Shown here in pieces: positions 40,396-44,593 of a stretch of 64,000 bases of DNA. The DNA lies in contig ONJM01000013.1 in assembly GCA_900318145.1 (NCBI GenBank), positions 1 through 64,000 of the forward strand, in the 5' to 3' direction. Numbering within the stretch: the stretch's first letter is position 1; each line of letters starts with the position of its first letter. A program made the position numbers and the translations under genes. Under the pieces are notes generated by a model. The model searched no databases. It was not told the DNA's origin and saw nothing but the letters and a program-made list of their open reading frames with translations. The stretch comes from an uncultured Eubacteriales bacterium (GTDB taxonomy: Bacteria > Bacillota > Clostridia > Christensenellales > Aristaeellaceae).

Positions 40396-40442
40396 TTCGT
40401 TTCCTCCTCAAGCCTGCTATGCTGTCCGATGGACATCATTAT

Positions 40443-40472
40443 TTTATATCATGCTTTTCCTTTTAATGTCAA
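40443..40472 (-). promoter_or_regulatory. Promoter of the degV gene
   Basis: TTGACA (40467-40472) and TATAAA (40443-40448) on the minus strand, 18 bp apart, ~48 bp upstream of the ATG. Confidence 0.7.
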
Positions 40473-40538
40473 TCTTTCCTTTTCTTTTCCAGCCGGCCGA
40501 AGAACACGGAAAAAACAGCGATATCCGTCCTGTCCCCA

Positions 40539-40567
40539 TTGACACCTGCCCGGTACCGGAGTAAGAT
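40539..40567 (+). promoter_or_regulatory. Promoter of the paaK leader transcript
   Basis: Perfect -35 TTGACA (40539-40544), 17 bp spacer, -10 TAAGAT (40562-40567). Transcription should begin near 40574, giving a ~150-nt leader that ends at the terminator at 40682-40722, then paaK at 40760. Confidence 0.82.
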
Positions 40568-40613
40568 GCGTATGTCGTTCAGCGGCAAGTTTTTTTCAGG
40601 AGATTATTTTGCG

Positions 40614-40661
40614 ATGATGTACAGTGCGGCTTTCTTCTTTAGCAGCATTGCGATGGATTGA
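40614..40661 (+). CDS. Candidate Phe-rich leader peptide (attenuator) ahead of paaK
   Basis: A 15-codon reading frame, MMYSAAFFFSSIAMD, with AGGAG 11 bp before the first ATG. It holds three consecutive Phe codons (TTC TTC TTT, 40632-40640) and one Tyr codon. It lies inside the leader RNA between the promoter and a strong terminator, and its last codons (ATT GCG ATG GAT TGA) overlap the segment that can pair with the terminator's 5' arm. This matches the layout of translation-coupled attenuators such as E. coli pheL. No homology can be claimed for so short a peptide; the call rests on the arrangement. Confidence 0.6.
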   Translation: MMYSAAFFFSSIAMD

Positions 40662-40722
40662 TAAGCGCCCGGAAGCGCGAGAATCCACCGCCTTTTAGCG
40701 TTGAAAGGCGGTGGATTTTTTT
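40650..40722 (+). promoter_or_regulatory. Antiterminator/terminator switch ahead of paaK
   Basis: Terminator: AATCCACCGCCTTT (40682-40695) pairs perfectly with AAAGGCGGTGGATT (40704-40717), then T8 (40715-40722). Antiterminator: GCGATGGATT (40650-40659) can pair with AATCCACCGC (40682-40691) at 9 of 10 positions, which would block the terminator. A ribosome paused at the Phe codons leaves 40650-40659 mostly free (paaK on); one that reaches the stop at 40659-40661 covers it (paaK off). The terminator itself is certain by inspection; the switch is inference. Confidence 0.7.
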
Positions 40723-40759
40723 AGCCTTCCTGCATCGTCAGCACAAAAGGAGGTGCCCC

Positions 40760-42067
40760 ATGGGCAGATACTACCAGCCGGAGATCGAAACAGCTCCGAG
40801 AGAGAAAATACTGGAGATCCAGAACGAAAAACTGGTCCGTCAGGTGCGCCATGTCTGGGACAACGTTCCCTATTACCGCCGCCTGATGGAGGAAAAAGGC
40901 GTTGCCCCCGAAGATATCCGCGGTGTGGAAGACATCAGCAAACTGCCCTTCCTCAGCAAGGCGGATCTGCGGGATGCTTACCCCTACGGTCTTCTGGGTA
41001 CGGATCTGAAAAACTGTGTCCGCATCCATTCCACCTCCGGCACCACCGGAAAGCGCGTCGTGGCTTTTTATACCCAGCACGATATCGATCTCTGGGAAGA
41101 TTGTACTGCCCGGGCAATTGTCGCCGCGGGAGGCACCGAAGAGGATGTGGTGCAGGTCTGCTACGGCTACGGCCTGTTCACCGGCGGTTCCGGCCTCCAT
41201 GGCGGCTCCCACAAAGTGGGCTGTCTGACGCTGCCCATGTCCTCCGGCAACACCGAACGGCAGATCCAGTTCATGATGGACCTGGGGTCCACCATCCTCT
41301 GCTGCACCCCCTCCTATGCCGCGTATATCGGCGAAAGCCTGGCGGAAATGGGATACAGACCGGAGGATAACAAGCTGAAAGCGGGCATTTTCGGCGCCGA
41401 GCCCTGGACGGAGGAAATGCGCAGGGATATCGAAAAGAAGCTGGGTATCAAAGCGTATGACATCTACGGCCTCACGGAAACCAGCGGCCCCGGAGTAGCC
41501 TTCGAATGCGAAGAGCAGCACGGCATGCATATCAACGAGGATCATTTCTACGCGGAAATTATCGATCCGGATACAGGAGAAGTGCTGCCCGAGGGCGAAA
41601 AAGGAGAATTAGTATTCACCGCGCTTGACAAGGAAGCCTTCCCTCTCCTCCGGTACCGCACCCGGGATATCTGTGTACTGTCCCGGAAGCCCTGCTCCTG
41701 CGGCCGCACCCATGTGCGCATGAGCAAACCGATGGGACGCAGCGATGATATGCTGATTATCCGCGGCGTCAACGTCTTCCCGAGCCAGATCGAAACCGTG
41801 CTCCTCAAGGAAGGCTACACCCCGAATTACCAGATCGTTCTGGACCGCGAACGCAACAACGACACCTTCGACGTTTACGTGGAAGTCAGTACCGATCAGT
41901 TCTCCGACCTGATGTCCCAGATCCAGAAGATGGAGAAGAGTCTGGAAGCCGCCCTTCGCACCATGCTCGGTATCGGTCCGCGGGTGCACCTGGTAGCGCC
42001 GAAAACCATCACCCGCAGCGAAGGCAAGGCTGTGCGCGTAATCGACAAGCGGAAACTGCACGACTGA
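40760..42067 (+). CDS. paaK: Phenylacetate-CoA ligase (PaaK-type AMP-forming ligase)
   Basis: Activates an aryl acetate (phenylacetate or a relative such as indoleacetate) to its CoA thioester using ATP. The 435 aa protein has the adenylate-forming core: IHSTSGTTGKRVVAF (P-loop), DIYGLTETSGPGVAFECEEQ (A5-type motif), LRYRTRDICVL and the C-terminal GRSDDMLIIRGVNVFPSQIE hinge, plus a Cys-containing CSCGRTH. It starts 14 bp after AAAGGAGG at 40747 and is followed by an ACT-domain gene. In Clostridia this pair commonly goes with indolepyruvate oxidoreductase, absent here. Its leader carries the Phe-codon attenuator, which fits aromatic amino-acid metabolism. Confidence 0.94.
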   Translation: MGRYYQPEIETAPREKILEIQNEKLVRQVRHVWDNVPYYRRLMEEKGVAPEDIRGVEDISKLPFLSKADLRDAYPYGLLGTDLKNCVRIHSTSGTTGKRVVAFYTQHDIDLWEDCTARAIVAAGGTEEDVVQVCYGYGLFTGGSGLHGGSHKVGCLTLPMSSGNTERQIQFMMDLGSTILCCTPSYAAYIGESLAEMGYRPEDNKLKAGIFGAEPWTEEMRRDIEKKLGIKAYDIYGLTETSGPGVAFECEEQHGMHINEDHFYAEIIDPDTGEVLPEGEKGELVFTALDKEAFPLLRYRTRDICVLSRKPCSCGRTHVRMSKPMGRSDDMLIIRGVNVFPSQIETVLLKEGYTPNYQIVLDRERNNDTFDVYVEVSTDQFSDLMSQIQKMEKSLEAALRTMLGIGPRVHLVAPKTITRSEGKAVRVIDKRKLHD

Positions 42068-42161: not shown

Positions 42162-42587
42162 ATGGCGATTACTCAGATCTCCCTTTTTCTCATGAATCAG
42201 CCCGGCCAGCTGGTGGAGGCCGTCGGAGCCATTTCTGAAACCGGCTCCAACATCCGCGCCATGAGCATTGCCGAAGCCAATGATTTCGGCATTCTCCGTG
42301 CGATCGTTTCGGATACGGACAAGGTTTGTTCCCTGCTGAAGGACAGATTTCTGATCACCCGCACCCCCGTGGTGGCCGCGAAGATGGACGACCGTACGGG
42401 CGCGCTGTATCCCATTCTGACCGCTCTTAACGAAAGCAACATCAATATTGAGTATATGTATGCCTTTACGGGCACCGGCCCGGAGGAAGCCTATGTGGTT
42501 CTCCGGGTGCAGGATCCCGCCCTGGCGGAAGACGTGCTCCACGCTGCCGGAATCACGACGCTCTCCGATGACAGCCTGAATCTCTGA
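42162..42587 (+). CDS. Tandem ACT-domain protein
   Basis: A 141 aa protein made of two ACT-like units (~1-70, ITQISLFLMNQPGQLVEAVG; ~75-140, ALYPILTALNESNINIEYMY). ACT domains bind amino acids. Small two-ACT proteins are regularly encoded beside paaK in anaerobes and are presumed to sense an aromatic or branched amino acid and modulate the ligase or transport; the ligand is unknown. GGAGG lies 9 bp before the ATG. The 94 bp gap after paaK has small hairpins (GGGGC/GCCCC, CGGGC/GCCCG) but no T run, so co-transcription is likely. Confidence 0.9.
   Translation: MAITQISLFLMNQPGQLVEAVGAISETGSNIRAMSIAEANDFGILRAIVSDTDKVCSLLKDRFLITRTPVVAAKMDDRTGALYPILTALNESNINIEYMYAFTGTGPEEAYVVLRVQDPALAEDVLHAAGITTLSDDSLNL

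Positions 42588-43134: not shown

Positions 43135-44593
<1,459 letters not shown>

Follow-up and report, generated by a model that had tools for sequence, protein, structure and literature searches.

The window, i.e., the entire 64,000-nucleotide stretch of DNA that was analyzed, carries on its plus strand a two-gene operon for a paaK-like AMP-forming arylacetate-CoA ligase (positions 40760 to 42067; Pfam AMP-binding and AMP-binding_C_2, PF14535/PF00501) and an ACT-domain-pair protein (42162 to 42587; PF19571, ACT_8). Both genes had been named as the target of a putative attenuator in an earlier, sequence-only reading of this locus, and the Pfam matches agree with it. The best NCBIfam match of the ligase, PaaK TIGR02155, scored 525.5 bits, which is below the curated cutoff of 646.3, and the safe name is therefore arylacetate-CoA ligase, PaaK-like. 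A promoter, a short open frame predicted to be translated, and an intrinsic terminator, all on the plus strand, precede this structural gene. The sigma-70-type promoter at 40539 to 40567 is made up of TTGACA (40539 to 40544), a 17-nt spacer, and TAAGAT (40562 to 40567), exactly as first read, and matched 10 of 12 consensus letters in a scan that returned 5 promoter-like sites in 5.1 kb versus 2.6 expected. AGGAG, a candidate ribosome-binding site of the leader frame, is present at 40598 to 40602 as claimed, but the 11 nt that separate it from the ATG at 40614 represent a long spacing. By eye, TTGACA-like boxes and purine-rich motifs occur at comparable positions in the leaders of relatives. 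The frame itself (40614 to 40661), read directly, has the 15 codons ascribed to it and is predicted to encode MMYSAAFFFSSIAMD before its stop codon, with three successive Phe codons, TTC TTC TTT, at 40632 to 40640.

These control codons end 9 nt 5′ of the antiterminator 5′ arm GCGATGGATT (40650 to 40659), which overlaps the last codons of the frame and the first base of the stop codon. A small hairpin, GCGC-N6-GCGC (40665 to 40678), supported by alignment and fold, separates it from a shared arm, AATCCACCGC (40682 to 40691), which according to the alignment, the covariation test, and the fold is both the 3′ arm of the antiterminator and the 5′ arm of the terminator. The two arms are complementary at 9 of 10 positions, bearing out the pairing proposed earlier; by a hand estimate, the chance of a 9/10 complement to a given 10-mer within about 60 nt is about 0.002. 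The intrinsic terminator (40682 to 40722), evident from sequence and fold and conserved among relatives, has a stem of at least 14 bp, in line with the earlier description, but ends in T7 (40716 to 40722) instead of the claimed T8, and the ATG of paaK follows 37 nt past the T run at 40760. Folding of positions 40574 to 40725 gave −52.5 kcal/mol (z = −2.7 versus shuffles). Elsewhere in the window, a promoter-like site on the minus strand (44593 to 44564, 11 of 12 letters) is accompanied by a terminator-like hairpin (44547 to 44511) at the start of the minus-strand frame 43135 to 44526, a putative glutamate dehydrogenase-like gene as judged by eye.

A search for paaK covered 61 genomes, 49 of which had a match, and 30 loci were read. 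The ACT-pair gene came next after paaK in all 30, with gaps of 14 to 203 nt. Counting the window's own, 17 of 22 loci with at least 87% identity carry the leader upstream of paaK, with promoter, frame, arms, and terminator in a common layout. The other five (L006, L007, L010, L020, and L022) gave no full-length match to the leader covariance model, L020 retaining a terminator fragment only (E = 0.34). Eight more distant paaK loci (76 to 78% identity) had no exact pattern match, nor did the five of them searched with covariance model R1 give a match. A pattern scan of 84,980 species genomes returned 20 matches, i.e., 17 before paaK, one before pheA (L058), one unrelated (L061), and L069, which was short at first and was later shown to lie upstream of paaK; the record titles of 8 of the 20 name sheep or goat rumen, omasum, reticulum, or duodenum. 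The unrelated match, from Rhodospirillaceae, has no leader frame and was set aside, as was an exact-pattern match inside long reading frames (L041, in G003). Within the genus, R1 matched in 23 of 45 genomes, comprising 22 with a paaK-type match above 100 bits and one (G015) with a weaker match only; paaK was found downstream in 21 of these 22, the contig of G030 ending too soon.

The frame is conserved along with the RNA. In set A1, which holds 22 distinct leaders (21 paaK and 1 pheA), the homologous frame was open in all, with FFF in 20 and FAF in 2, and the arm cores paired in 22 of 22, which is partly by construction given that some leaders were found via pattern search. The sequence-only reading had asked for conservation of FFF upstream of the paaK genes of relatives and would have been contradicted by relatives keeping the terminator with loss of the frame, the Phe codons, or the antiterminator pairing; the opposite was found. 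On comparative grounds, conservation upstream of paaK settles the reality of the leader.

Homologous leaders were also present before other aromatic genes. Five weaker full-length R1 matches turned out to be paralogous leaders, whose predicted peptides are MFAYSYFYFYSIAMDS, MFANSYYYFYSPAMDG, and MRKVFGYYYFRNAMDG before chorismate mutase-prephenate dehydratase (PDT) genes and MMFAYAYYYFTGAMDGRG and MKGYSYYFTGAMDERRDASV before aroB. In genome G034, a paaK leader coexists with one before pheA (MRPYVSGFFFSRSAMD). Of 308 genomes searched in the family, 29 gave a match; these included two further Tyr/Phe leaders, from another genus (MFMYYYFYFNTAMDGR and MRRPDGYFYFISAMDG). Model R3, built from the five Tyr/Phe leaders, matched 22 of 45 genomes of the genus and revealed no further Tyr/Phe leaders there, five of its matches being those already known and the others paaK or pheA leaders. 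Among the 396 genomes of the order, 13 had an R1 match, three of them in another family and all three before pheA; applied to that other family, R1 matched 9 of 20 genomes. Model R2 matched 18 of the 396 genomes, 12 of them in genus g53 of this other family, which contributed 12 pheA leaders, 11 with FFF and 1 with FIF. Altogether, 12 of 13 pheA leaders belong to a family other than that of the window, and no leader was seen by eye upstream of the pheA gene of the window's own genome. Several candidates were rejected: the order-wide R1 matches L186 to L189 and the R2 matches L211 and G159 gave no aromatic leader of the attenuator kind, and G001:C38 has a terminator only.

The final count was 43 leaders, i.e., 23 of the paaK type (paaK visible in 22), 13 of pheA, and 7 of chorismate mutase-PDT or aroB, leaving out the matches G479 and G503 and the exact-pattern matches in G019 and G026; a mixed alignment with its arms out of register (A2) was likewise kept out of the counts. 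In 42 of the 43, the next downstream gene is paaK (22) or PDT/aroB (20), the contig of L115 ending too soon, and all 20 non-paaK targets matched Pfam prephenate dehydratase or 3-dehydroquinate synthase over the cutoff. Codons were parsed by script in 42 leaders and read separately in the remaining one (L207). FFF occurs in 19 and FAF in 4 of the 23 paaK-type leaders, whose 18 distinct frames average 3.2 Phe and 0.7 Tyr, and the pheA leaders carry FFF (12) or FIF (1). The seven chorismate mutase-PDT/aroB leaders combine Tyr and Phe, with means of 3.4 and 2.1, respectively. The control codons thus follow the target pathway, and the window's leader has a run of codons for the amino acid of its own, provided that PaaK serves to make Phe. 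Both Phe and both Tyr codons occur among the leaders. The last control codon ends 9 to 10 nt 5′ of the arm in Phe leaders and 6 nt in Tyr/Phe leaders (41 of 42 parsed), the exception being L003, where a further Phe is placed at the arm itself. The arm of g53, GCGATGTG, occurs in two reading frames, giving a peptide that ends in SDV or in AMC or AM before the stop, while FFF stays in frame; what is conserved is therefore the RNA and not the C-terminal peptide. Conservation of the peptide regardless of RNA pairing was not found, since its C terminus varies with frame and target.

In the alignment of the 22 leaders, 98.5% of cells keep the antiterminator pairs and 95.1% the terminator pairs, but several of these leaders had been retrieved with patterns that prescribe the arm cores; two pairs of the hairpin between the arms show changes on both sides. 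The covariation test used 37 arm pairs, 14 of them distinct, from both families (37 of 38 rows aligned by a script that anchors on arm positions 1 to 6). Pairing at positions 7 and 8 is complete (37 of 37) despite bases that change from one family to the other; it holds in 35 at position 9 and in 31 at position 10, and position 4 is a constant A-C mismatch. Over the 14 distinct arm pairs, positions 7 to 10 were paired in 49 of 56 cases, compared with a mean of 35.1 after shuffling, and none of 20,000 shuffles reached 49. Shuffles within families averaged 45.6, and 1,414 of 20,000 reached the observed pairing, which is not significant; the support therefore consists of a small number of between-family changes. 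Hence the compensatory arm changes anticipated earlier were found as joint changes between families but not as significant covariation within them. Judging from the aligned arms, the two change jointly between families. In 10 of 22 leaders, the base opposite arm position 8 is unpaired in the terminator.

The antiterminator and the terminator are mutually exclusive, and the end of the frame holds the 5′ arm of the former. In the window, the intermediate folds into the antiterminator at −17.8 kcal/mol with pair probabilities of at least 0.95, and the finished transcript folds into the terminator. Folds that mimic a stalled ribosome gave the antiterminator in 18 of 18 leaders, 18 of 21 having been computed. 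In the window, the antiterminator is still dominant without a ribosome (pairs 0.63 to 1.0). In attenuators of the classical trp/phe type, a protector hairpin favors termination when the leader is not translated, but not every member has one. In several leaders, including that of the window, the Phe codons can come to lie in the loop of a hairpin. A classical protector (1:2) hairpin was nonetheless rejected for the window, as the modeled Phe-codon hairpin leaves the antiterminator unexcluded. An untranslated leader is therefore predicted to read through, i.e., the model gives the window no safeguard against read-through without translation. Competition was partial in relatives, with the second arm pair at 0.36 in L011, 0.29 in L013, and 0.67 in L003, so these modeled leaders may have a protector.

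Taken as a whole, the sequence comparison makes it very probable that the leader senses charged tRNA-Phe by ribosome-mediated transcription attenuation. The earlier proposal of FFF-sensing attenuation is supported by the conserved layout and by the pathway-matched codons of homologous leaders. RNA polymerase would start near 40574, and a ribosome would translate the 15-codon frame behind it. If Phe-tRNA is sufficient, this ribosome would reach the stop codon and cover 40650 to 40659, leaving 40682 to 40691 free for the terminator, and the paaK-ACT operon would be off. When Phe-tRNA is short, the ribosome would wait on the Phe codons at 40632 to 40640, 40650 to 40659 would pair with 40682 to 40691, and the operon would be read because no terminator forms. 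Against an attenuator count the small number of between-family changes behind the covariation, the four paaK-type leaders that have FAF only, the absence of the leader from 5 of 22 close paaK loci and of matches from the more distant loci as searched, and the predicted read-through of an untranslated leader in the window. TnaC-type leader peptides stall the ribosome when a metabolite is bound, and the FFF peptide could likewise arrest it upon binding of, e.g., phenylacetate rather than for lack of Phe-tRNA. We consider such nascent-peptide arrest improbable: it would suit an aryl-acid gene induced by its own substrate and the constant AMD at the end of paaK leader peptides, followed by the stop or by one codon more (L012, L115, and L116), but the codons for AMD lie in the RNA arm that has to pair, a single g53 arm yields SDV or AMC/AM depending on the frame, and one or more codons follow in the aro leaders. 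YYYF or YFYFY-like runs also replace FFF before shared-pathway genes, and an identical design precedes pheA, which makes Phe. A constitutive terminator giving a short-lived small RNA, with paaK read from another promoter, deserves even less credence; the strong promoter-terminator unit of about 180 bp would fit it, but not the open frame with conserved Phe codons, the antiterminator arm, or the constant identity of the downstream genes.

Another alternative leaves the attenuator mechanism intact and concerns the target. PaaK could act in amino acid breakdown, through oxidative decarboxylation and arylacetate release, with the response to Phe serving another purpose, and the accessible part of PMC13285125 assigns indolepyruvate:ferredoxin oxidoreductase (IOR) to the fermentation of amino acids in Pyrococcus. 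We regard this as unlikely, since a switch turned on when Phe is short fits synthesis and since homologous leaders precede pheA; according to the same text, AMP-forming ligases typically favor acyl-CoA synthesis, and aromatic amino acid synthesis was suggested for IOR plus arylacetate-CoA ligase in Bacteroides. In relatives, the gene directly upstream of paaK matched IOR beta over a curated cutoff in all five loci tested (five of the eight at 76 to 78% identity), which makes salvage of phenylacetate to Phe the most likely role of PaaK. The ligase would make the CoA ester of phenylacetate and possibly of further arylacetates, and IOR would convert this ester by reductive carboxylation to phenylpyruvate, a route leading on to Phe. 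PaaK thus probably works in the anabolic direction: as a target, it would be understandable in the making of Phe from phenylacetate, not in catabolism. The window's paaK has no adjacent iorA; in its genome, IOR alpha scored over the cutoff twice, both times elsewhere, and neither gene had a leader by eye or an R1 match. A PaaK-like ligase about 43% identical to that of the window lies downstream of the second one (L231; G000:C35:54500-61500). Phe synthesis from phenylacetate in rumen bacteria was reportedly described by Allison in 1965, a work listed among the references of PMC7356843. The leader bears on the direction, synthetic or degradative, in which the ligase-IOR pair works; induction upon Phe shortage predicts that Phe is made from phenylacetate. 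Most likely, then, these gut Clostridia use the leader to keep a gene for making Phe from scavenged phenylacetate on only in Phe shortage.

The enteric pheL-pheA and pheM-pheST attenuators comprise a Phe-rich leader peptide, a terminator, and a competing antiterminator. The present leader resembles them in these elements and in having a Phe biosynthesis target, and differs in its three control codons, its paaK target, and the lack of a predicted excluding protector hairpin in the window. T-box riboswitches sense tRNA charging by antitermination; the leader would sense it too, but via a translated frame. No Rfam family matched L110, L183, L013, or L108 at the gathering score, and positions 40400 to 40800 of the window matched only miRNA, sRNA, and snoRNA families, with no T-box (RF00230), at E values up to 10. 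The window's genome has seven T-box matches (L031 to L037), three over the Rfam cutoff, and thus holds T-boxes alongside leader peptides. The statement that Firmicutes usually use T-boxes holds as a tendency only, because leader-peptide attenuators have already been reported in this phylum: the available portions of two papers describe His leader peptides of hisZ/hisS* in bacilli (PMC2965389), likewise in a setting where T-boxes are usual but with another amino acid, other genes, and another lineage, and a Leu-rich peptide of the Staphylococcus aureus ilv-leu operon (PMC5794164), for which mutations were consistent with attenuation. The latter concerns another amino acid and operon and was approached by genetics, unlike the comparison made here. 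Leader peptide attenuators of Actinobacteria, as far as the accessible text of PMC1262725 goes, are RNA elements of amino acid genes outside Proteobacteria, albeit in a different phylum. By title or abstract start, and with subscription papers mostly outside coverage, we found no report of a leader peptide for paaK, pheA, or aromatic genes from Clostridia or rumen bacteria, which agrees with the earlier remark that a paaK peptide attenuator is undescribed, and no description of a codon-swapped leader family. The mechanism class is known, while the members, the lineage, and the paaK target are apparently new. If confirmed, Phe and Tyr/Phe leader-peptide attenuators would be added to an order of Clostridia for which we found none described, and would amount to natural codon-swap experiments in which a common RNA switch is combined with differing control codons and targets.

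One subclade may go further. In all 8 computed paaK leaders with the arm GTCAGCGATGG (L011, L013, L014, L015, L018, L019, L057, and L228), a stretch before paaK and 13 to 156 nt past the terminator is complementary to the arm at 11 of 11 positions, G-U allowed, and only 0 to 3 of 400 shuffles were as good. It reads, for example, CC(A/G)TCG(C/T)TGAC, and is CTGTCGCTGAC in L018. L021 reached only 8 of 11, and L067 was left out of the computation; the window and the other computed leaders reached 6 to 9 of 11, with at least 129 of 400 shuffles as good. Speculatively, the leaders could form a transferable aromatic attenuator cassette whose codons are exchanged among paaK, pheA, and chorismate mutase-PDT/aroB, with a two-stage version in this subclade, where the post-terminator segment would refold the RNA after read-through and add a second checkpoint ahead of paaK. 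In L004, repeated GTCATTC(T/C)GAACGC-like units lie between the terminator and paaK, at about 1350 to 1490 in reverse-strand coordinates.
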